Part shown: positions 10,537 to 37,811 of the stretch, in pieces | Layout of the letters: each line of letters opens with the position of its first letter | Position numbering within the stretch: the first letter of the stretch is position 1 | From: Gammaproteobacteria bacterium | GTDB taxonomy: Bacteria > Pseudomonadota > Gammaproteobacteria > Xanthomonadales > Wenzhouxiangellaceae | NCBI GenBank assembly: GCA_009908385.1 | Contig: JAAAPE010000061.1 | Location: 1 to 38,197 of the forward strand | Direction: 5' to 3' | DNA length: 38,197 bases | Position numbers and translations under genes: made by a program | Notes under the pieces: generated by a model | What the model saw: only the letters and a program-made list of their open reading frames with translations | Databases searched by the model: none | What the model was told of the DNA's origin: nothing

Positions 10537-10688
10537 GGTTTCAGGGTTCAGGGGGCGTTTGGGGAAGCGTTCCGTTCGTTGCCGAAGATTCCGGCGCCGA
10601 GTATGCTGCTTGCCCCCAAACAATCAGGTTCGGTCCGGAAACCGGAAGATCCGCCAGGGTCTTTTCCTGAACCCTGAACCCTGAATCC
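10537..10688. repeat. Mirrored short-unit repeat island 1 (unit TTCAGGG)
   Basis: The left arm (10537-10555) has two TTCAGGG units. The right arm (10666-10688) has three units of the complement, CCCTGAA. About 110 bases of unrelated sequence lie between; inside it are GTTTGGGG (10557-10564) with its complement (10614-10621) and a small TCCGG-AAA-CCGGA hairpin (10634-10646). The left arm begins on the base after the DUF456 stop. Confidence 0.75.
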
Positions 10689-10713
10689 TTTTCTGTTCAG
10701 GCGTCAGTCGTCC

Positions 10714-10737
10714 GTCGGGGGTGCGACCCCGACCTAC
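10714..10737 (-). repeat. REP-like hairpin with GTAG head
   Basis: On the minus strand GTAG (10737-10734) is followed by a 7-base stem GTCGGGG / CCCCGAC with a 6-base loop. A GTAG head plus short imperfect palindrome is the form of REP elements moved by RAYT transposases in xanthomonads and pseudomonads. It starts two bases after the nuoN stop, so it could also end or stabilise the nuo transcript. Only one copy is seen here. Confidence 0.5.
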
Positions 10738-10738
10738 G

Positions 10739-12175
10739 TTACACGAAGGAACTCACGCAGAGGCTGATCAGGCCGCCGGAGAAGATGCCGAGCGCGAGCA
10801 TGGCCACACCGTTGACGGTCAGCACCGCGCGGAAGTCGACCGGCGCGGTGACCGGCTCTGCGTCTTCGGGCTCGTCGAAGTACATCAGCTTGACCACGCG
10901 CAGGTAGTAGAACGCGCCGATGACGGCGGTGACGACGGCGATGATCGACAGCCAGGTCAGGCCGGCCGACAGAGCCGCGGCGATGACCTGCCACTTGGCG
11001 AAGAAACCGACGAAGACCGGGATGCCGGCCAGCGAAAACATGATCATGAGCATCATGAGGGCGTGCCAAGGATTGCGCTTGGCAAGGCCCTTGAGGTCGT
11101 CGAGGTTCTCGGCCTCCGCGCCGCTGGTGGACAGCAGGATCAGTACCGCGAAGGCGCCGGCCGACATGATCGCGTAGACAATCGTGTAGAACATCGCCGC
11201 CGCGTAGCCTTCGGGCGTGGCCGGCAGCAGGCCGAGCAGAATGAACCCGACGTGGGCGATGGTCGAATAGGCGAGCATGCGCTTGATATTGGTCTGCGCG
11301 ATGGCGACGACGTTGCCGAGAATCATCGACAGGGCCGCGAGCACCACGAGCATGCCCTGCCAGTCCCCGTGCAGCGCCACCATGCCGTTGTCGAGCAGGC
11401 GGATCGCCAGGGCGACGGCGGCCAGTTTCGGCACCGAGCTCAGGAACAGGGTGATCGGTAGCGGCGCGCCGTGGTAGACATCGGGGATCCACATGTGAAG
11501 CGGCACGGCGCCGAACTTGAAAGCGATACCGAGCACCATGAAGACAAGGCCGAAGGCCAGCAGCATTTCCTCGCCGACGCCCGCCGACAGCGCCGCGCTG
11601 ATGTCGGTGAGCGCGAGGCTGCCGGTGGCACCGAAGATCAGGCTCATGCCGAACAGCAGCATGCCCGATGCCATCGAGCCGAGAACGAAGTACTTCATGG
11701 CCGCTTCCGAGCCCTGCAGGGAATTGCGGTCGAGCGCCACCAGCGCATAGCTCGACAGGGTCAGCAGCTCCAGGCCCAGGTAGACGGTCAACAGCGAATT
11801 GGCCGAAATGAGCACCATCGTTCCAAGAAGCGCGAACAGGCTGAGCGTATAGAACTCGCCCTTGAACAGGCCGAACTGGCGCAGGTAGTGCTTGGCGTAG
11901 ACGAACACGCCGATCAGGATCAGGTAGCAGAACACCTTGAGCACGTCGCCGAAGCGATCGCGAACGAACGTGTCACTGAACGCGTAGACGACCTCTCCGG
12001 GCGCCATCATCAGGCGCAGGCTCAGGATGGCCGCGAAGGCCAGGGTGATCACCGCCAGCGTGTGCGTGAGCCCGCGGCGCTCCTCGGAAATGAACAGGTC
12101 GGCCAGCAGCACAACGCAGGTCATGCTGAGCACGAAAATCTCCGGTAGCGCCAGTTGCAGTTCAGCAATCGTCAT
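10739..12175 (-). CDS. nuoN: NADH-quinone oxidoreductase subunit N
   Basis: A 478-residue antiporter-like subunit of the complex I membrane arm, with about 14 helices, that helps pump protons. The helix-5 glutamate is visible in LGLELLTLSSYALVAL and the channel lysine in AFKFGAVPLHMWIPDVYHG. The family motif NIKRMLAYSTIAHVGF follows. The length is normal for bacterial NuoN. It is the last gene of the operon and starts 6 bases after the nuoM stop. The stop is followed at once by the GTAG hairpin. Confidence 0.97.
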   Translation of the reverse strand: MTIAELQLALPEIFVLSMTCVVLLADLFISEERRGLTHTLAVITLAFAAILSLRLMMAPGEVVYAFSDTFVRDRFGDVLKVFCYLILIGVFVYAKHYLRQFGLFKGEFYTLSLFALLGTMVLISANSLLTVYLGLELLTLSSYALVALDRNSLQGSEAAMKYFVLGSMASGMLLFGMSLIFGATGSLALTDISAALSAGVGEEMLLAFGLVFMVLGIAFKFGAVPLHMWIPDVYHGAPLPITLFLSSVPKLAAVALAIRLLDNGMVALHGDWQGMLVVLAALSMILGNVVAIAQTNIKRMLAYSTIAHVGFILLGLLPATPEGYAAAMFYTIVYAIMSAGAFAVLILLSTSGAEAENLDDLKGLAKRNPWHALMMLMIMFSLAGIPVFVGFFAKWQVIAAALSAGLTWLSIIAVVTAVIGAFYYLRVVKLMYFDEPEDAEPVTAPVDFRAVLTVNGVAMLALGIFSGGLISLCVSSFV

Positions 12176-12181
12176 GTCGAA

Positions 12182-13693
12182 TTATCCAGTCTTGCTCTGC
12201 ATGATGTGCCCGACCAGATTCTGGACCGAGGGCTCCATCAGATCGATCAGCGGATAGGGCCACACGCCCAGCCCCAGCGTGAAGACGGCAAGCACGGTGA
12301 GCATGAGCCACTCGCGACCGTCCAGGTCCTTGAGCGATGCCACGTTGTCGTTCGCCACCTCGCCATAGAAAACGCGCTTGACCAGCCACAGGCTGTAGGC
12401 CGCGCCGAGAATCAGCGTGGCGGCGGCCGCGAAGGCGAACCAGAAGCTGGCGTGGAAAGCGGCCAGGATGACCATGAACTCGCCCACGAATCCGGACGTG
12501 CCCGGCAGGCCCGAGTTGGCCATGAAGAACAGCACGGCGAACATCGCGAACCAGGGCATGGTGTTGGCCACGCCGCCGTAGGCCGAGATTTCGCGGCTGT
12601 GCACGCGGTCGTAGAGCACGCCGACGGCGAGGAACATCGCGCCCGAGATGAAGCCGTGCGAGATCATCTGGACCATGGCGCCGGACATGCCCAGGCCCGC
12701 ACCGGTCAACTCGCCTGTATTGCGGGCGATCGCGAAGGCCAGGAACATGCCCAGCGTCACGAAACCCATGTGCGAAATGGAGCTGTAGGCGATCAGCTTT
12801 TTCATGTCGCTCTGGGCCAGCGCGACGAAGCCGATGTAGACGATGGCGATCAGCGACAGGCCGATCACCAGCCAGTCGAGGTGCGCCGCCGCGTCGGGCG
12901 AGATCGGCAGGGCGAAGCGCAGCAGGCCGTAGCCGCCGATCTTGAGCATCACCGCCGCCAGCACCACCGATCCGCCCGTGGGCGCCTCGACGTGGGCGTC
13001 CGGCAACCAGGTGTGCACCGGCCACATGGGCACCTTGACGGCGAACGCGATCAGGAAGGCCAGGAACACCCAGATCTGCGGCACCAGGCCGAACTCGTGG
13101 CGGTGCAGGTCGGCGATGGCGAAGCTGCCCGAGTCGAGGTAGAGCCACAGCAGCGCGATCAGCATGAACACCGAGCCGAAGAAGGTGAACAGGAAGAATT
13201 TCACCGTGGCGTAGATGCGGTTGGGGCCGCCCCAGATACCGATGATCAGGAACATCGGCACCAGCATCGCTTCGAAGAAGACGTAGAACAGCAGCGCGTC
13301 GAGGGCGGCGAACATGCCGGTCATCAGCGCGTGCAGCGTCAGGAAGGCCGCCATGTACTGGTGCGGCCGGTCGGTGATACGCCAGCCGCCGACGACCACC
13401 AGGACGCAGATCAGCGTATTGAGCAGGATCAGCGGAAGCGACAGGCCGTCGATGCCCAGGTGGTAGTGGATATTGAACGCCTCGATCCAGACCGCTTTCT
13501 CGACGAACTGCATCTGGGCACTCGTGGCATCGAAGCCGGCGTAGAGCAGCAGCGACAGGCCGAACGTGACCAGGGCCACGATCAGCGACAGCGGGCGCAC
13601 GAGATCGGGCGATCGCTGGCCGAGCGCGATCACGGCGACCGCACCGGCGATCGGAATCCAGGTCAGCAGACTCAGCAGGGGCCAATCCAGCAT
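12182..13693 (-). CDS. nuoM: NADH-quinone oxidoreductase subunit M
   Basis: A 503-residue antiporter-like proton-pumping subunit of the membrane arm. The helix-5 glutamate lies in FFEAMLVPMFLIIGIWGG and the conserved lysine in VKVPMWPVHTWLPDAHVEAP; DMKKLIAYSSISHMGF is the NuoM-type connecting motif. Length is normal. ATG 13693 follows a good AAGGA ribosome site, needed because the gene is not coupled to nuoL: a 200-base gap holding a large palindrome separates them. Confidence 0.97.
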   Translation of the reverse strand: MLDWPLLSLLTWIPIAGAVAVIALGQRSPDLVRPLSLIVALVTFGLSLLLYAGFDATSAQMQFVEKAVWIEAFNIHYHLGIDGLSLPLILLNTLICVLVVVGGWRITDRPHQYMAAFLTLHALMTGMFAALDALLFYVFFEAMLVPMFLIIGIWGGPNRIYATVKFFLFTFFGSVFMLIALLWLYLDSGSFAIADLHRHEFGLVPQIWVFLAFLIAFAVKVPMWPVHTWLPDAHVEAPTGGSVVLAAVMLKIGGYGLLRFALPISPDAAAHLDWLVIGLSLIAIVYIGFVALAQSDMKKLIAYSSISHMGFVTLGMFLAFAIARNTGELTGAGLGMSGAMVQMISHGFISGAMFLAVGVLYDRVHSREISAYGGVANTMPWFAMFAVLFFMANSGLPGTSGFVGEFMVILAAFHASFWFAFAAAATLILGAAYSLWLVKRVFYGEVANDNVASLKDLDGREWLMLTVLAVFTLGLGVWPYPLIDLMEPSVQNLVGHIMQSKTG

Positions 13694-13711
13694 CTATTAG
13701 TCCTTTAGCTC

Positions 13712-13884
13712 GCCATGTGCATGGCTGGTTCGTCGCGAGACGGATCCAGGCCCTGTAGACGCGGCAATTCGCGACCGAGCGAACCACAGGCGTACTGGTC
13801 AGTACGTCGAGGATTCGCGACCGAGCAAAGTGCCGCAGATGCAGGGTCTGGGTGCGTCGTAGTAGAAGCAGTCATGTACATGGC
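13712..13884. repeat. 173-base imperfect palindrome between nuoL and nuoM
   Basis: Nested arms share one axis at about 13798.5. The outer arms 13712-13731 and 13865-13884 match at 17/20 (GCCATGTGCATG end). The middle arms at 13751-13766 and 13831-13846 share CCCTG and GCGGCA blocks. The central hairpin is CGTACTG-GT-CAGTACG (13791-13806). A 14-base direct repeat ATTCGCGACCGAGC (13767-13780 and 13813-13826) is embedded off-axis. It has no coding potential. The shape is MITE-like, and it is transcribed within the nuo mRNA. Confidence 0.75.
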
Positions 13885-13893
13885 GGGCCCAAA

Positions 13894-15861
13894 TTACCGG
13901 AGCAGAACGAACGACGCCACGAGCGCGACCAGCGCGACTACCATGACGAAGGCGTAGTGGAACAGGAAGCCGGACTGCAGCTGACGCATGGCACCGGAAA
14001 CGCGACCGACCAGGCGGGCCGAACCATTGACCAGCCAGCCGTCGATGACCGTACGGTCGCCGCCTTTCGACAGGCCCGAGGCAATGCCCAGGCCGGCGCC
14101 GGCTAGCACCTTCTGCCACAGCTCGTCGAAGCCGTACTTCCTGTCGAGGATGGTCCAGGCCAGGTAAAGCCTGCGCTTGATCGTATCGGCCAGGCCCGGA
14201 TTGAACAGGTAGATGTAGGTCGAAATGCCCACACCGAGCATCGCCAGCCAGAACACCGGCGTCATGAAGCCGTGCAACGCGAAGGCGAAGGCGCCGTGAT
14301 CGAACTTCGCGGCAAGCTTGTTACTGACCACGTCGTTGACTTCGCGCACGACGATGGAATCAGACAGGGCACCGCCGAACAGCAGCGGCTCGACCGTGAA
14401 ATAGCCGATCGCCAGCGAGGGGATGGCCAGCAGGATCAGCGGCACGGTGACCACGGCGGGCGTCTCGTGCGCGTGCGAACGCGTCTCCTCGTCCATCCGC
14501 GTCGGACCGTGGAAGGTCAGGTAGAGCATCCGGAAGGTGTAGAGCGCCGTGATCACCACGCCGGCCATGACGGCGAAGTAGGCGAAGCCCGCGCCGGGCC
14601 GCTCGGCGTAGTGGACCGCCTCGATGATGAGATCCTTGGAGAAGAATCCCGAAAAGAACGGGAAGCCGATCAGCGCCAGCGAGCCGATCCAGGCGGTGGC
14701 GGCCGTGATCGGCATGTACTTCGCCAAGCCGCCCATCTCGCGCATGTCCTGCTTGTGGTGCAGGGCGATGATGACAGAACCCGCGCCCAGGAACAGCAGG
14801 GCCTTGAAGAAGGCGTGCGTCATCAGGTGGAAGATCGCGACCGAATAGGCCGACGCGCCCAGCGCCACCGTCATGTAGCCCAGCTGCGACAGGGTCGAGT
14901 AGGCGACGACACGCTTGATGTCGTTCTGCACGATGCCGATCAGACCCATGAACAAGGCGGTGACCGCACCGATGACCAGGATGAAGCTCAGCGCGACGTC
15001 GGATGTCTCGAAGATCGGCGACAGGCGCGCGACCATGAAGATGCCGGCCGTGACCATGGTGGCCGCGTGGATCAGTGCGGAGATGGGCGTCGGGCCTTCC
15101 ATGGAGTCAGGCAGCCACACGTGCAGCGGCACCTGCGCCGACTTGCCCATCGCGCCGATGAACAGACAGATGCAGATTACCGTCATCAGCGACCACTGCG
15201 TGTCGCCGAACAGGGCGATGGTGGTGCCTTCGACGGCGGGCACGGCCGCGAACACTTCGGCATAGTTGAGCGAACCCATGTAGACCAGAATCGCCGCGAT
15301 CCCCAGCAGGAAGCCGAAATCGCCCACACGGTTGACCAGGAAAGCCTTGAGGTTGGCGCGAACCGCCGTGTCCTTCTTGAACCAGAAACCGATCAGCAGG
15401 TAGGACACCAGGCCGACGGCTTCCCAGCCGAAGAACAGCTGCATGAAGTTGTTCGCCATCACCAGCATCAGCATGGCGAAGGTGAACAGGTTGATGTAGG
15501 CGAAGAAGCGCTGGTAGCCGGGATCGTCGTGCATGTAGCCGATGGTGTAGATGTGCACCATCAGCGACACGAAGGTCACCACGGTCATCATCAGGGCCGT
15601 GAGGCTGTCGACCAGGAACCCGACCTCGAAGGTGATGCCGTCGGTCACCGCCCAGGTGTAGACGGAGTAGTCCAGCGTGGGCAGGCCGTTGAAGAACACC
15701 TGCCAGGCGACCCAGGCCGACAGCGCCGCCGAACCCGCAACTGCGAGAATGGTAATCCAGTGCGCTCCGGCGCGCCCGACCTGATGACGCAACAAGCCGG
15801 CCACGGCACTACCGACGAGCGGCAGCAGCGGGATCAGCAGCAGTACGGTCTCAATACTCAC
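13894..15861 (-). CDS. nuoL: NADH-quinone oxidoreductase subunit L
   Basis: A 655-residue distal antiporter-like subunit with the long C-terminal lateral helix expected for NuoL. The helix-5 glutamate is in FFGWEAVGLVSYLLIGFW, the channel lysine in MGKSAQVPLHVWLPDSMEGPTP, and DIKRVVAYSTLSQLGYM follows. The start is GTG 15861, behind GGGATGA; two upstream ATGs run into a stop or are out of frame. It is separated from nuoK by 205 bases and from nuoM by 200 bases, both gaps filled by palindromic repeats. Confidence 0.96.
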   Translation of the reverse strand: MSIETVLLLIPLLPLVGSAVAGLLRHQVGRAGAHWITILAVAGSAALSAWVAWQVFFNGLPTLDYSVYTWAVTDGITFEVGFLVDSLTALMMTVVTFVSLMVHIYTIGYMHDDPGYQRFFAYINLFTFAMLMLVMANNFMQLFFGWEAVGLVSYLLIGFWFKKDTAVRANLKAFLVNRVGDFGFLLGIAAILVYMGSLNYAEVFAAVPAVEGTTIALFGDTQWSLMTVICICLFIGAMGKSAQVPLHVWLPDSMEGPTPISALIHAATMVTAGIFMVARLSPIFETSDVALSFILVIGAVTALFMGLIGIVQNDIKRVVAYSTLSQLGYMTVALGASAYSVAIFHLMTHAFFKALLFLGAGSVIIALHHKQDMREMGGLAKYMPITAATAWIGSLALIGFPFFSGFFSKDLIIEAVHYAERPGAGFAYFAVMAGVVITALYTFRMLYLTFHGPTRMDEETRSHAHETPAVVTVPLILLAIPSLAIGYFTVEPLLFGGALSDSIVVREVNDVVSNKLAAKFDHGAFAFALHGFMTPVFWLAMLGVGISTYIYLFNPGLADTIKRRLYLAWTILDRKYGFDELWQKVLAGAGLGIASGLSKGGDRTVIDGWLVNGSARLVGRVSGAMRQLQSGFLFHYAFVMVVALVALVASFVLLR

Positions 15862-15887
15862 AACGAGTCATCCCATCAAATTCAAAA

Positions 15888-16053
15888 TTTGTCCACAGAT
15901 GAACACAGATCAACACAGATAAAGAGCGAAGACCGTTTCGGGCGAAGCCCAGATGGGCCATTGATCGCTTCCGGAATCAACTTGGCGACGATCTCTCTCG
16001 TTTTTTCTTGTTCCTTTTTCATCCGTGTTCATCCGTGTTCATCTGTGGACAAA
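15888..16053. repeat. Mirrored short-unit repeat island 2 (unit GAACACAGAT)
   Basis: The left arm (15888-15923) reads TTTGTCCACAGAT, then GAACACAGAT and CAACACAGAT. The right arm (16018-16053) is its complement with two ATCCGTGTTC units. The outer 19 bases (15888-15906 and 16035-16053) are a perfect inverted repeat. About 95 bases of non-repeated sequence separate the arms. The island fills the nuoK-nuoL gap, with the right arm 13 bases after the nuoK stop. Confidence 0.8.
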
Positions 16054-16066
16054 AGATCTTCCCGAA

Positions 16067-16372
16067 TCAGCCCCTGAGGTCCGAAATATCCTCGACGCTG
16101 ATCGAGCGACGGTTCCGGAACAGCACCACCAGCAGCGCCAGCCCGATCGCGGCCTCTGCGGCCGCGACGGTCAGGATGAAGAACACGAAGACCTGTCCGT
16201 CGAGCACGTCGAGAAAGCGCGAGAAGGCGATGAAGTTCATGTTCACCGAAAGGAGCATCAGCTCGATGCACATCAGCAGGATGAGCACGTTCTTCCGGTT
16301 GAGGAAGATGCCGGCCAGGGCGATGCAGAACAGCAGCGCGCCCAGGGTGATGAAGTGCGCCAGTGTCAGCAT
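16067..16372 (-). CDS. nuoK: NADH-quinone oxidoreductase subunit K
   Basis: A 101-residue, three-helix subunit of the membrane arm proton path. The two conserved membrane glutamates are visible in [14 protein letters not shown] and [13 protein letters not shown]. The length is exactly the family norm. ATG 16372 overlaps the nuoJ stop (TGATG), so the two are coupled. The frame remains open far upstream, but that part is nuoJ sequence in another frame. Confidence 0.97.
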
Positions 16373-16974
16373 CAGGCTTCCTCTCCCTCGCTTTTCATCT
16401 TGACCACGCGCAGGCGCTCGTCGCGCTTGACGCGGACCTGGCGGGCGGGATCCTGGTGCTTGGTCTCCGGCCGCCGGCGATGCGTCAGCGCGATGGCCGC
16501 AATGATCGCGACCAGCAGCACGACCGCGGCGATCTCGAATGCGTAAAGGTACTCGGAATAAAGCAGCTCGCCGATCATGCTGGTGTGGCTGTATTCGTCG
16601 CCCTCGCCCGCGGGCATCGGCATCGTTTCCATGCCGCGCGTCCAGATCACCAGAAAGAGCTGGACGGCCATGGCGAGCGCAACCAGCACGCCGGCCGGCA
16701 GGTAGCGGGCAAAGCCCTCCCGAACGGAAGCGACGTGCACGTCGAGCATCATCACCACGAACAGGAAGAGCACCATGACGGCGCCGACGTAGACCAGCAC
16801 CAGGGTGATGGCGAGAAACTCGGCCTGCAGCAGCATCCAGATGCACGCCGCCGAGAAGAAGCTGAGGATCAGGAACAGCGCCGCGTGGATCGGATTACCG
16901 ACCGTGATGACGCTGAGCGCGGACAGGACGAGGACGCCGCTGAACAGGTAGAAGAGTATTTCGATGATTGGCAT
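16372..16974 (-). CDS. nuoJ: NADH-quinone oxidoreductase subunit J
   Basis: A 200-residue membrane subunit with five helices, including the [19 protein letters not shown] segment that forms the helix-3 bulge linked to coupling in complex I. A hydrophilic tail after the last helix ([17 protein letters not shown], ending KSEGEEA) is charged and probably cytoplasmic. ATG 16974 starts the typical [13 protein letters not shown]; it lies 13 bases after the nuoI stop, and the 3' end overlaps nuoK. Confidence 0.96.
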
Positions 16975-16987
16975 GGCAGGCAGACCC

Positions 16988-17476
16988 TTAACGATAGCGT
17001 GCGTCGCGCGCGCGGTTGGCGGCAATGCTCTCTTCGTACCGATCCCCGATGGCCAGCAGCTGCTGCTTGTCGACGACCTTTTCGGACTTGTGCTCCATGT
17101 GGTACTCCCCGACGTCGGTGAGCACGATCGAGTCGACGGGGCAGGATTCCTCGCAGAAACCGCAGTAGATGCACTTGAACAGGTCGATGTCGTAGCGCGT
17201 CGTGCGCCGCGTGTTGTCTTCTCGGTTGTGCGACTCGATGGTGATCGCCAGGGCCGGGCAGACCGCCTCACAGAGCTTGCAGGCGATACAGCGCTCTTCG
17301 CCGTTGGGGTAGCGGCGCAGCGCGTGCAGGCCGCGGAAGCGCGGCGACCAGGGCGTATGCTCGTCCGGGTAGTTGAGCGTGGCCTTGGGCGCCAGGCCCA
17401 TCCGCCACGTCACCGCCAGGCCGCGGAACAGCTCCAGCAGCATCAGCGAGCGCAGATAGCGAGTAACAGCTTGCAT
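16988..17476 (-). CDS. nuoI: NADH-quinone oxidoreductase subunit I (two [4Fe-4S] clusters)
   Basis: A 162-residue ferredoxin-like subunit of the connecting arm. It carries clusters N6a and N6b between the NADH module and NuoB. Two complete CxxCxxCxxxCP sets are present: Cys 63, 66, 69, 73 and Cys 102, 105, 108, 112. The N-terminal amphipathic helix ([18 protein letters not shown]) anchors it at the membrane face. The start lies 6 bases after the nuoH stop. Confidence 0.98.
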
Positions 17477-17482
17477 AATCGA

Positions 17483-18502
17483 TCAGCCTCCGAACCAGCC
17501 CATGACCCGGAACACCCCGGCGACCATGATCCACACGATCGTGATCGGGATGAAGACCTTCCAGCCCAGGCGCATGATCTGGTCGTAGCGATAGCGCGGA
17601 AACGTCGCGCGGAACCACAAGAACAGGAAACAGAACACGGCGGTCTTGAGCAGGAACCAGTGCACCCCGCCCTCGCCGAGGAACGTGTCGCCCACGACCG
17701 GAATGCCCGAAAACGGCGACAGCCAGCCGCCCATGAACAGCAGGGAGGCGAGCGCCGAGATCAGGATCATGTTGGCGTATTCGGCCAGGAAGAACACGGC
17801 GAAGCCGGCGCCGGAATACTCGACGTGGAAACCGGCGACGATCTCGGACTCGCCCTCGGCCACGTCGAAGGGCGCGCGGTTGGTCTCGGCCACGCCGGAG
17901 ACGAAGTAGATCACGAACAGCGGCAGCAGCGGCAGCCAGTACCAGGTGAAGATGTTGCCGGACTGCGCCTCGACGATGGCCGTCAGGTTGAGCGTGCCGG
18001 CCAGCACGATCACGCCGACCAGGGCGAAGCCCATGGCGATTTCGTAGGAAACCGTCTGCGCGGCCGCGCGCAGGCCGCCAATCAGCGCGTACTTGGAATT
18101 CGAGGCCCAGCCACCGAGCAGGATGCCGTAGACGCCCATCGACGTCAGGGCCAGGATCAGCAGCAGCCCGGCGTCGACGTCGGCCAGCACCAGCCAGTCG
18201 TCGAAGGGCACTACGGCCCAGGCAGCCAGCGCCGGCGCCAGCGAAAGCAGCGGCGCGAGCAGGAACAGGAACTTGTTGGCGTTGGTCGGAACAATCAGTT
18301 CCTTGAACAGCATCTTGAACACGTCGGCGAAGGGCTGCAGCAGCCCCAGCGGCCCGACGCGGTTCGGCCCGCGGCGCGAGTGCATGTAGCCGAGCACCTT
18401 GCGCTCGAAATACGTGTAGTAGGCCACGGCGATGGTCACCGGCAGGATGATGATCATGATCTTGGTCATCGTCCAGATCAGCGTGAGGAGCTGGTCGATC
18501 AT
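17483..18502 (-). CDS. nuoH: NADH-quinone oxidoreductase subunit H
   Basis: A 339-residue membrane subunit that forms the quinone chamber with NuoB and NuoD. Family signatures are clear: [20 protein letters not shown], then [16 protein letters not shown], and the acidic loop [17 protein letters not shown]. The length is normal. ATG 18502 overlaps the nuoG stop (ATGA), indicating coupling. Confidence 0.98.
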
Positions 18503-20862
18503 GCCGGCACCTCCAGGCTGATGTCACCGCCACCGGCGCCCAGGGTCGAAACCGGGCAGGTCGCGACCGGCAGGCCGACCGCCCCCGGCGCGACGCGGGC
18601 GTCGATCACCAGATCGAGCTCTGCGCTGGCATCGCCCTGGCTGACGCGAACCCGACTGGCGTCCTCGAGACCGTGACGCCGGGCCGTGGCCGGGTGAACG
18701 GCGCAGACCGTGGCCTCGGCATGCGTGGTCTGCTGCAGGGCCGGCGCCCTTCTGAGCACGTTGTCGCCGGCGTAGATGGGCACCTCGCCGGTGCGCCAGA
18801 GCGTGTCGCCTTCGGCCAGCACCGGCGCGGCCGGCTCGTCGCAGGCCGCTTCGCCCGTCTCCACGGCGAGGGCGCGTTCGGTCACGGCCTCCAGGGTCGC
18901 GAAGTCGAAACCCGCCGCCCCGGACATCTCCCCGAGCTTGCGCAGGATCTTCCAGCCGGGCCGCGCCTGTTCCGGCGCGCGTCCGACCGCCTGAAGCGTT
19001 TCGCGATGGCCGTCGGCATTGATCCAGGTGCCGTCGACTTCCGGCACCGGCGAGAGCGGCAGCAGGACATCGGCCGTCTCGCGCAGCACGGCGTTGTCGA
19101 AAGGCGTCGCGGCGACCACCGAAGCGGCGCCGTCGAGCGCGCGGCGCGCCGCGGCCGGGTCGGCCAGGTCGAAGTCCGGCTCGATGTCCCAGAGCAGGTA
19201 GGCCTGCCGAGGCCTGGCGATCATGCCCCAGGCGCTCAGGCCGTCGCGGGCGGGGACGCTGCCGGCGGTCCAGGCACCGGTGCTGTTGGCCGGCCCGGGC
19301 AGGACGACGAGCGCCACTTCCACGGCGCCGGCCAGCCATTCGGCGATGCGGCGCAGCCAGCCGGCTTCGGGGTGGTTGAGCGCCTGGTCGCCGAGAAGGA
19401 GAACGCCGGAATCGGCGTCCTTGAGGAGGCTCGCGAGCTGTTGCGCTTCGGGTTCCGGATGCCGCTCGGCGATGTATTCGCCCAGCTTGCCGTCGGGCAG
19501 GCTCGCGCCGGTCAGGTCGGCGGCCGCCTTGGCGACCCGGCCGAAGGTGTCGACCATCGCCTGCGGCGGCACGATCAGGCGCTCGGCGAGATCGAAATGG
19601 AAGTCCCAGGCCACGCTGTTGATGTCGGCCACCTTCGCGCCGTTCTGACGCCAGGCGGTGCGCACGCGATGGCCCAGGATGGGCTGTTCGTGGCGGATGT
19701 TGCTGCCGACCAGCACGATGGCGTCGGACTCGGAAATACTCGCCGTGGGCACGTCGAGATGCGCGCGGCCCGCCTGCGGATGCGAGAAGTCGAGCAGGCG
19801 CAGGCGGTGGTCGACGTTCTCGCTGCCCAGGGCACGCGCCATCGAGGCCGCAAGGTAGTGTTCTTCGGTGGACGCGCGCGGCGAGACCAGCACGCCGAGT
19901 TCGCGGCCGCCGTGGGTCTCGACGGCGCCCTTGAGCGCGCGTGCGGCCGCTTCGAGGGCGTCCTGCCAGTTGGCCTCGCGCCACTCGCCGTCGACCTTGA
20001 TCTGCGGCGTGGTCAGGCGATCGTCGGCGCGCAGCCCGAAGTGGCTGTAGCGGTCGCGGTCGGCCAGCCAGCATTCGTTGATCGCCTCGTTGTCGCGCGG
20101 CACGGCGCGCATGATCTTCGGGCCACGCGTGTGGTAGAACAGGTGCGAGCCGAGGCAATCGTGCGTCCCGATGGACTTCCGGGCGCGCATCTCCCACGGC
20201 CGCGCGGTGTGGCGGAAGGGCTTGTTGGTGAGCGCGCCGACCGGGCAGAGGTCGATGACGTTGCCCGACAGCTCGGAGTTGATGTTGCGCTCGACGAAGG
20301 TGCCGATCTCCATGTGCTCGCCGCGGCTCATGCCGCCGAGCTCGCAGGTGCCGGCGATTTCCTCGAGGAAGCGCACGCAGCGCGTGCAGTGGATGCAGCG
20401 CGTCATGTCGGTCTCGATCAGCGGGCCGACGTTCTTGTCGCGCACCACGCGCTTGCGCTCGGTAAAGCGCGATACCGACCGGCCGTAGCCCATGGCCAGG
20501 TCCTGCAGCTCGCATTCGCCGCCCTGGTCGCAGATCGGGCAGTCGAGCGGATGGTTGATCAGCAGGAATTCCATCACGCCGCGCTGGGCGTCGACGGTGC
20601 GGCGCGATTCGGTGAACACCTTCATGCCGTCGGCCACCGGCGTGGCGCAGGCCGGCAGCGGCTTGGGCGCCTTCTCGACATCGACCAGGCACATGCGGCA
20701 GTTGGCCGCGATCGACAGCTTGTGGTGGTAGCAGAATCGCGGAATGTCGATCCCGGCCCGATCGGTCACCTGGATGATCATCTCGCCCTTCCGGGCGGTC
20801 AGTTCCTGGCCGTCGACCTCGATCGTGACGGTGTCGTCCTGTTTGTTCTCAGCAGTAGCCAT
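18499..20862 (-). CDS. nuoG: NADH-quinone oxidoreductase subunit G (large iron-sulfur subunit)
   Basis: A 787-residue molybdopterin-oxidoreductase-like subunit of the NADH module. Visible ligands: [2Fe-2S] N1b at Cys 44, 55, 58, 72; N5 at His 104, Cys 108, 111, 117; N4 at Cys 156, 159, 162, 206. The extra N7 quartet of E. coli is absent; only Cys 236 is seen in that region. The rest is the degenerate molybdopterin fold. The 3' end overlaps nuoH by four bases. Unlike its neighbours, it is not coupled to nuoF: 185 bases with a repeat island lie between. Confidence 0.98.
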
Positions 20863-20897
20863 CAGTTCATCCGATCTGCCAGAGCTTCTCGAAACCG

Positions 20898-21034
20898 CCG
20901 ATTACGCAGATTCGCGCAGATTCATTGGTTTCGGAAAACTCCGAAACGCCGTTACAAGATTCGATTTGCTGCGTCATTCTCGAAATCATTCGTCTGCGAG
21001 CTCGATCTGCGTCCATCTGCGCAATCTGCGGTTG
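20898..21034. repeat. Mirrored short-unit repeat island 3 (unit CGCAGATT)
   Basis: The left arm (20898-20923) has two CGCAGATT units 10 bases apart. The right arm (21004-21034) has three complementary units (ATCTGCG). Between them are about 80 bases with an 8-base hairpin GTTTCGGA / TCCGAAAC (20928-20947). It fills the nuoF-nuoG gap, with the right arm 13 bases after the nuoF stop. Confidence 0.78.
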
Positions 21035-21047
21035 CATGGGCCCCACA

Positions 21048-27238: not shown

Positions 27239-27247
27239 CTGTCTCAG

Positions 27248-27303
27248 GGAACCTCTGAACAACTCTGCGCGGGCGCGAAGGCGCAGAGTTGTTCAGAGGT
27301 TCC
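27248..27303. repeat. Perfect 23-base inverted repeat upstream of tpiA
   Basis: Arms 27248-27270 and 27281-27303 are exact complements around a 10-base loop (GGGCGCGAAG). The outer end reads GGAACCTCTGAAC. No T-run follows on either strand, so this is not a standard intrinsic terminator; it may still end transcription of the gene at 27370 or be the remains of a small mobile element. Confidence 0.8.
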
Positions 27304-27369
27304 TTGGGGCTCGCCGGATAAAGACGTTCGTCAAGCCACCGGCGACCGGCAGAAGAACGGCCGGGTCGC

Positions 27370-28670: not shown

Positions 28671-28816
28671 GGTCAGTGCGTCTGTGCGTCGGTAGTCTGT
28701 GCGTCAGTGGTCGGCACCTCCGACGCACGGACGCACGGACGCACGGACGCACGGACGCACTGACTACTGACGCACTGACCACAGACGTACTGACGTCCTG
28801 CCCACCGACGCACGGA
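28671..28816. repeat. Mirrored short-unit repeat island 4 (unit GTGCGTC + 1 base)
   Basis: The left arm (28671-28714) holds three GTGCGTC units, two CAGT and one TAGTC variant. The right arm (28720-28782, weaker to 28816) holds five consecutive GACGCAC units with an 8-base period from 28722 to 28760, then CTGACTACTGACGCACTGACCAC-like sequence mirroring the left arm. Only 5 bases separate the arms, so it could form one long hairpin. It sits between the convergent YceI and pmbA genes and could act as a terminator for both. Confidence 0.8.
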
Positions 28817-28828
28817 CACGCCGACCCC

Positions 28829-37623: not shown

Positions 37624-37629
37624 GGGTCG

Positions 37630-37682
37630 GTGCGTCTGTGCGTCTGTACATCTGTGCGTCTGGGCGTCTGGGCGTCTGGGCG
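37630..37682. repeat. 8-base tandem repeat (GTGCGTCT) upstream of maf
   Basis: Six units with an 8-base period run from 37630: GTGCGTCT three times, one GTACATCT variant and GGGCGTCT twice, then a partial unit. The core GTGCGTC is the same as in island 4 at 28671-28816. It begins 7 bases upstream of maf ATG, covering the place of a ribosome site and leader. No mirrored arm is found nearby. Confidence 0.8.
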
Positions 37683-37732: not shown

Positions 37733-37811
37733 GCCGTCTCGTTCGGGGAGGCTTCGCTGAGGGCCTCGCCACCGCGTCGAACTGAAGCGAAGCCTCCCCG
37801 AACGAGGCGGC
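37733..37811. repeat. 26-base inverted repeat between rlmH and maf
   Basis: Arms 37733-37758 and 37786-37811 match at 25 of 26 positions around a 27-base loop. The arms include TTCGGGGAGGCTTCGC. On the minus strand the hairpin begins 29 bases after the rlmH stop and no T-run follows it, so it may be an attenuator, an mRNA-stabilising stem or a small mobile-element remnant. Confidence 0.75.

Follow-up and report, generated by a model that had tools for sequence, protein, structure and literature searches.

Iterated-arm palindromes in the nuo operon of a gammaproteobacterium and their probable kinship with elements carrying a nuclease gene or a four-helix gene

Results

Palindromic inserts in the nuo operon

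The subject of this work is the nuo operon of a gammaproteobacterium of the family Wenzhouxiangellaceae (assembly GCA_009908385.1, contig JAAAPE010000061.1; the stretch of 38,197 nucleotides that was analysed is called the window below), and in particular the palindromic inserts between its genes, which lie on the minus strand. Recomputed from the ends of the open reading frames (ORFs), the three wide gaps have the sizes given in an original prediction that had been made from the sequence alone: 185 bp between nuoF and nuoG (F/G, 20863-21047), 205 bp between nuoK and nuoL (K/L, 15862-16066) and 200 bp between nuoL and nuoM (L/M, 13694-13893). The other E-to-N junctions are as tight as it had stated (E/F 0, G/H -4, H/I 6, I/J 16 or, counted to the ATG, 13, J/K -1 and M/N 6 bp). 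The prediction also held that each wide gap is filled by a different palindrome of unrelated sequence. Each does contain a palindrome with arms scoring above shuffled sequences, but two of the three are alike: the K/L and F/G inserts share one architecture, a core between inverted arms made of 2-3 tandem copies of a ~10-nt unit, and only the L/M insert stands apart.

The K/L insert (15888-16053, minus strand) has a non-coding core, a ~10-nt unit TGAACACAGA and ends TTGTCCACAGATGAACAC, and it belongs to a family with multiple copies in its own genome. Its arms are 43 nt each and 84% complementary; the arm alignment places one beside nuoK, on the 5' side of the transcript (16011-16053, minus strand), and the other beside nuoL, on the 3' side (15888-15930, minus strand). 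Read in transcript sense the insert is TTTTGTCCACAGATGAACACGGATGAACACGGATGA - core - ATCTGTGTTGATCTGTGTTCATCTGTGGACAAA, with the ~10-nt word repeated at either end in inverted orientation. The F/G insert (20893-21033, minus strand) has arms AACCGCAGATTGCGCAGATGGACGCAGAT of ~29 nt at 21005-21033 and ~20893-20922, which score 33 against 20 for the best of 40 shuffles. Both inserts have the inverted arms of tandem 8-10-nt units that define the class discussed here, with a period of 10 in each case.

The L/M insert (13704-13892 with approximate borders, minus strand) is a palindrome without iterated arms (score 33, best of 40 shuffles 18). It is a separate, more conventional small palindromic repeat of genus-level distribution, present in the related genomes G003 and G024 and absent from G011, G027 and others; its family was found in 9 of 36 genomes. 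We also considered its ends as those of a larger transposon, and gave the idea up: the pattern matched in 12 of 41 genomes, not in its own, and the places listed had no clear long pair.

Small genes between iterated arms

In related genomes arms of the iterated kind enclose genes. The M/N gaps of G008 (479 bp) and G026 (475 bp) contain a complete small gene between CACAGAG arms, and this gene belongs to PF13366/TIGR04256 (GxxExxY), a PD-(D/E)XK nuclease. GxxExxY matches were found in 28 of the 61 related genomes (26 above the family cut-off) and in 3 of 14 controls, none of them above it. When the loci of the relatives were inspected by eye, many had arms of several families around the gene; at two of them (L096 and L098) an additional iterated palindrome lies upstream, one element beside another.

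A second gene, coding for a four-helix (23S-IVP) protein, occurs in 29 of the 61 related genomes and in 50 of 299 genomes of the phylum. One such protein matches 2GSC, XCC0516 of Xanthomonas, which is reported to be a homopentamer (PMC4990558, as far as its accessible text goes). Its link to 7-nt repeat families was at first a guess, which we then examined: many four-helix genes lie between 7-nt arrays. The word of these arrays differs among copies, but within a copy both ends have the same one. At L128 (G040) the four-helix gene sits amid a ladder of ~30-nt hairpin units instead of 7-nt words. The genes examined inside arms were PF13366/TIGR04256 or PF05635, with no DDE, HUH, tyrosine or serine transposase among them; other gene types were not searched for. 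The window inserts contain no 23S-IVP/S23 frame, unlike the four-helix loci of the relatives, because with ~140-190 bp they are too short for the ~110-residue IVP domain.

Both proteins are under purifying selection. The ratio of non-synonymous to synonymous substitution rates (dN/dS) was 0.045-0.18 in the 15 of 25 pairs, taken from the two proteins, where it could be estimated, the synonymous rate being saturated in several. Among 50 GxxExxY sequences D65, E75, Q89 and Y93 are invariant, and K77 is conserved in at least 90%. The nuclease resembles Phage_endo_I (E 0.0097) and the TnsA-like family (E 0.099) in Pfam only below the curated cut-offs, which is a lead to small PD-(D/E)XK nucleases such as phage endonuclease I and TnsA, not a membership. 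Searched against the PDB it gave no match (best E values 0.52 and 0.99), and the PADLOC anti-phage annotation matched neither of the proteins tested. A GxxExxY relative was found in 8 of 72,556 plasmid records.

Arms and their unit length in the flanks of the two genes

The association of arms and genes was measured by local alignment of the 300 nt upstream of each gene with the reverse complement of the 300 nt downstream. The GxxExxY set from many phyla consisted of the best 80 of 552 confirmed loci, reduced to 75 by leaving out L146, L163, L164 and L191, which are near contig ends, and L161, which was skipped, and to 74 by dropping L151, the same locus as L093. Its counterpart from the relatives comprised 30 of the 43 listed matches, of which 25 remained without L091 and the partial L109-L112. 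For the four-helix gene we used 30 of the 50 listed matches in relatives and 30 further loci, of which L261 and L270 were omitted from the flank test (28 left) and kept in the swapped-flank test.

The 99% level of Markov-shuffled flanks (26, 24, 27 and 26 for the sets of 74, 25, 30 and 28) was exceeded by 62/74 GxxExxY loci from many phyla and 24/25 from relatives, and by 23/30 and 21/28 four-helix loci; mirror controls, in which the flank was reversed and not complemented, passed in 5/74, 0/25, 0/30 and 1/28 cases. Around 400 control ORFs from the genome of the window the 99% level was 28, slightly above the Markov thresholds, and the maximum 33. Beyond this maximum lay 49/74 and 22/25 GxxExxY loci (together 71/99) and 21/30 and 16/28 four-helix loci (together 37/58).

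The length of the arm unit goes with the encoded protein. The period was 9 or 10 nt in 48 GxxExxY loci, 8 in 8 and unclear in 30, with no case of period 7 in the tested loci; among four-helix loci it was 7 nt in 34, 8 in 3 and unclear in 7. Arm sequence also follows the nuclease, as arm similarity rises with nuclease identity (Spearman 0.25, p 0.0005; Mantel test on 62 loci below 70% identity, 2000 permutations, permutation maximum 0.14). The arms of the K/L insert are those of the clade of L089 in G003, and the F/G arms those of a clade that we call 'FLEAVYQ'. The K/L and F/G inserts are very probably members of a nuclease-associated class of palindromes.

History of the K/L family

A 20-nt K/L end was searched for in the 61 genomes, with up to 2 mismatches allowed. 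It is frequent in G003 (25+25), G011 (24+20), G024 (17+16), G021 (13+10) and the genome of the window, G000 (7+6), rare in G034 (2+3), G010 (1+1) and G018 (0+1), and absent from the other 53. The reversed control pattern gave no match. These ends match those of the GxxExxY element of G003 (L089/L340), so that the insert and a coding element of the same clade have them in common. A cognate nuclease turned up in G003 and G010, but in none of G011, G021 and the genome of the window. At the site of the full gene of G003, G024 has the same arms enclosing a nuclease shortened by an internal deletion.

The cores behave differently from the arms. Within the genome of the window 1 of 20 core pairs scored above all shuffles; in G003 and G024 it was 17 of 465, namely 10 from one element read twice, 5 from shared sites and 2 weak others. 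We also looked for remnants of the nuclease gene in 13 core regions of G003 and 7 of G024, and discarded that origin of the cores, since besides the full G003 element only the truncated copy of G024 was related. At 8 sites shared between species (14 pairs) the arms are identical to 0.957, a value partly guaranteed because the copies were found by their arms, and the cores to 0.57 (shuffled 0.51); the contrast with the cores stands, and it argues that these copies at least are old, vertically kept insertions with maintained arms.

Of the 48 copies of the family classed by a codon-position heuristic, 42 have co-directional neighbour genes, 5 convergent and 1 divergent ones. In the position tables (47 copies, the 5 convergent ones among them) the first base of unit 2 is G in one arm and A in the other in 31 of the 40 copies that have A or G in both (Fisher p 0.002), counts that are not fully independent since there are orthologues among the copies. 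In the transcript this would give an A-C pair in 21/40 copies and G-U in 10/40. The nuclease-coding copy shows the same polarity (left G, right A), and judged from these sequences it looks like that of the left and right ends of a DNA element.

Turnover at the junctions of related nuo operons

The window and 20 related genomes (21 in total) provided 186 readable E-to-N junctions. Fifty of them are at least 60 bp wide; 28 of the 50 have inverted arms scoring above shuffles, and in 21 the arms are iterated (23 were flagged as periodic, minus two false positives of the L/M type). The remaining 22 wide gaps have no arms by the same test, some with a single arm or a decayed copy. Wide gaps are missing at G/H, H/I and J/K (0 of 63 counted, with G/H of G027 not truly measured as the nuoG match broke off). 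At K/L the arm family changes with the genome: TGAACACAGA in the window and G003, CGCAGATTTC in G024, CGCAGATGAA in G018 and CACGAAGG in G029, and the junction is 3-5 bp in G025, G026, G019, G013, G002, G017 and G023. Two further operon junctions show similar turnover, with G027 empty; at one of these G026 has a 112-bp gap without iterated arms. In a tree of the nuo genes all eight species of the clade of the window have a K/L gap above 100 bp, with several families among them, so that a single old insertion with later replacement of the arms is as possible as many insertions.

The insertion at tolerated sites that had been proposed is supported by these comparisons: some relatives have short junctions at these places, others have inserts of other families there, and the inserts belong to multicopy families. 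The alignment with relatives that was suggested as a check gave filled and empty junctions between species; the few non-coding bases at the borders are too diverged for a target-site duplication to be read.

Two observations on other nuo genes should be mentioned. At the start of nuoE in G027 (L068) there is a ~265-bp insert with ends GGGAATTCGCTTC...GAAGCGAATTCC, yet another type. In six genomes from other families of the phylum (L250, L252, L257, L258, L260 and L269) a four-helix element with 7-nt words lies upstream of a nuoD-like gene identified by eye, at ~1300-2050 of the strand examined; the nuo operon may have been invaded in distant groups too.

A four-helix element in a second genus

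Filled and empty sites were also compared in genus g109 of the same phylum, at a junction whose upstream gene we take to be acyl-CoA-dehydrogenase-like. In a comparison across 146 species, 33 listed matches span the whole four-helix element. Fifty junctions, 30 from loci returned by the search and 20 picked from the listing, were read in detail; an element is present at 30 and missing at 15, and 5 are of another kind. Where the junction is filled, the upstream gene takes its stop codon from the array in some species, and in others a TAA or TGA precedes the array. One locus (L325 in G436) has an 8-nt unit in both arms versus 7 nt in its relatives, a sign that arms are homogenised with each other. 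Filled and empty species are interleaved on the tree built from the flanks, with at least 7 changes, of which well-supported branches force only 1-2.

Other repeats of the window and RNA folding

Directly after nuoN there is, as predicted, a GTAG-tagged, REP-like hairpin (10691-10738, minus strand), similar in its tag to the GTAG REPs of the accessible part of PMC3733652; its RNA fold is not unusually stable (z -1.0). Beyond it lies a fourth, stronger palindrome that the earlier account did not list (10537-10690, minus strand). Its arms repeat 7-nt words (GGTTCAG/GGTTTCA), which agree in length with the units of the four-helix type, and it is absent from G011 and G024. A further iterated-arm palindrome on the plus strand (28672-28825) has an 8-nt unit GCACGGAC / GTGCGTCC, with arms at 28672-28764 and more units up to 28825, and a one-sided array of 8-nt units, GTGCGTCT and variants, occupies 37624-37682 of the plus strand. 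Measured against 200 dinucleotide shuffles, RNA folding is strong for the K/L insert (z -6.5), the L/M insert (-5.0) and the palindrome at 10537-10690 (-3.9); for F/G z is only -2.3, with 5/200 shuffles as low. Between 10300 and 29000 of the window no Rfam 15 match reached the gathering score.

The 427,756 bases searched, made up of the window and 0.39 Mb of its own genome on contigs chosen for carrying the K/L family, contain 24 inverted repeats of score 40 or more. An automatic flag found 12 of the 24 iterated, their two arms having equal period, and repeated words of mixed length (7/8 nt) can be seen in several of the others. Two hairpins of the window are of other appearance: an inverted repeat at 27245-27306 with 26-nt arms, 96% complementary, containing GGAACCTCTGAACAACTCTGCGC (z -10.6), which looks like a minimal transposon-end hairpin, and a hairpin at 37733-37811 with 26-nt arms GCCGCCTCGTTCGGGGAGGCTTCGCT (z -6.9).

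Discussion

The most likely explanation of these inserts is a seldom recognised kind of selfish DNA: its complete forms contain a gene for a nuclease or for a four-helix protein, and its differing variants occupy the same gaps in related species. Within this explanation we consider it probable, if far from certain, that the K/L and F/G inserts represent small selfish palindromes in non-autonomous form, moved or copied by the encoded protein. The original prediction is partly supported; it overlooked the link to the nuclease and four-helix genes, and that two of the three inserts are of one class.

A full-length element consists of one small gene between two inverted arrays of short units, and there are two lineages, one with the GxxExxY PD-(D/E)XK nuclease and 8-10-nt units, the other with the four-helix-bundle (23S-IVP/S23) protein and units of 7, rarely 8 nt. 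To the latter the palindrome beyond nuoN may be assigned because of its unit length. We suppose that the encoded protein acts on DNA: it would recognise the iterated arms and cut there or close by, and a break at an operon junction or in an older copy could be repaired with the element as template. Such templated repair would spread copies and keep the arms alike while the cores drift, and copies would persist mainly between co-directional genes, where the harm is small. A more far-reaching proposal, which we put forward tentatively and rate somewhat below even chances, is that this is a selfish class outside the transposase-based kinds, in which word length is determined by the protein family (7 nt with four-helix, 8-10 nt with GxxExxY proteins), arms are kept and cores are disposable. 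In that case the nuclease may cut arms or cruciforms and home into junctions and older copies, leading to a succession of families at each junction. Neither transposition nor target duplication was seen among the copies compared, and the exact mechanism is a guess.

It must be noted that several observations weigh against selfish spread by the encoded protein. The loci of the flank tests were the best-scoring matches, not a random sample. At the looser threshold 13/99 GxxExxY and 14/58 four-helix loci have no arms, numbers that rise to 28 and 21 under the stricter threshold. When swapped flanks serve as the null, an inflated one since words are shared among loci, 42/75 GxxExxY loci from many phyla and 17/30 and 8/30 four-helix loci passed, and only 1/25 GxxExxY loci from the relatives. 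The Mantel correlation is modest. No cognate nuclease of the K/L arms was found in G011 (99% complete) or in the genome of the window (85%), whose arms are conserved, and G010 has the nuclease yet only 1+1 K/L ends. Near-identical cores were seen only at sites shared between species, so no recent transposition is visible, and at these sites 3 of 14 core pairs score above every one of 50 shuffles; the arm identity there is subject to the bias stated above. Finally, no target-site duplication was readable from the empty and filled sites compared.

The inserts could instead be RNA hairpins useful to the host, long duplexes of the transcript processed by RNase III/E or tuning the ratio of the nuo subunits, which is close to the selection for structured RNA that had been proposed originally. 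The strong folding of the K/L and L/M inserts and of the palindrome beyond nuoN agrees with this, as do the position of most K/L copies between co-directional genes and the conservation of arms, while cores drift, also in genomes where the cognate nuclease was not found. Yet the fold of F/G hardly surpasses that of shuffles, related species lack an insert at the same junctions, and the sharing of one arm sequence by unrelated loci is not something that pairing demands. The tendency of the two arms to differ at unit 2 costs pairing, and this weakens RNA pairing as the conserved feature. Taken together we regard host-useful hairpins as rather unlikely.

It is less probable still that these are ordinary miniature inverted-repeat transposable elements (MITEs), served in trans by an unseen transposase, with the GxxExxY and four-helix genes as passengers. 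The terminal inverted repeats, the polarity of the ends, the multiple copies, the filled and empty sites and the ends shared with a coding element would all suit a MITE. A shared interior, which copies of a MITE have, was not found, and passengers would not be expected to split the unit length by encoded protein or to have arm sequences that track nuclease kinship; only loci of these two genes were read, and a third gene type was not searched for. Equally hard to credit is an origin without any mobility, by slippage that makes arrays in place and template switching that makes palindromes, the genes being chance or local passengers. Array length does change freely, and L325 with its 8-nt units in both arms fits such a process. 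On the other hand, one clade has the same unit at many loci while it is scarce outside that clade, and a gene with intact catalytic residues recurs inside such arms across phyla.

It is interesting to compare these elements with repeats described previously; the comparisons are limited to the accessible text of the papers cited. Like the REP/RAYT system (PMC3733652), they are short palindromes with many copies, mostly downstream of genes, and a rarer protein-coding partner. They differ from it in that the K/L and F/G arms are built of tandem ~10-nt units and are not the 20-40-bp GTAG-tagged palindromes of that system, the hairpin at 10691-10738 being the one that carries GTAG, and the partner is a PD-(D/E)XK nuclease (with 7-nt arms, a four-helix protein) instead of a tyrosine transposase. 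The intervening sequences of 23S rRNA genes (PMC4990558) are likewise stem-loop inserts with a PF05635 (S23/IVP) protein, but they are known in rRNA helices, whereas the four-helix loci lie between protein genes and have iterated 7-nt arms; the window inserts too lie between protein genes and not in an rRNA gene.

Tandem 7-nt units are also found in the GGGAATC heptamer repeats of Xanthomonas and Nostoc, with 70 and 75 convergent inverted pairs in two Xanthomonas genomes (PMC4692102). These were described as G-quadruplex repeats generally without mobile-element association, and the accessible text contains neither 'four helix bundle' nor 'S23'. In Geobacter metallireducens, paired hepta- and octanucleotide 'global regulator binding sites' consist of tandem 7-8-nt units on opposite strands with variable spacing, and by our comparison the unit TCTCCGTS(Y) of one class, reversed, resembles the CACGGAGA arms found here; they were interpreted as regulator sites, with no nuclease link stated in that part of the source (PMC2700814). 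The TAACTGA heptamers of marine Beggiatoaceae (PMC4679880) are 7-nt tandem intergenic repeats whose mobility was discussed. Unlike ours they are almost all direct, with one inverted set, and 'S23', 'intervening' and 'four helix bundle' are absent from the accessible text. GxxExxY itself is mentioned in PMC8934634. As far as these sources can be read, the repeats have thus been partly described already, under other readings (PMC4692102, PMC2700814, PMC4990558, PMC4679880, PMC11270868, PMC3733652). A link of the repeats to GxxExxY or four-helix genes was not found in searches of an open-access library, a scope that leaves out most subscription papers and preprints.

The elements described here could give a common cause to the heptamers of Xanthomonas and cyanobacteria, the paired 'regulator sites' of Geobacter, the S23/IVP genes and a widespread uncharacterised nuclease, GxxExxY. 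If the mechanism holds, they would be DNA that needs no transposase to spread, and hairpins inside operons as well as variable-number repeats would arise from them.

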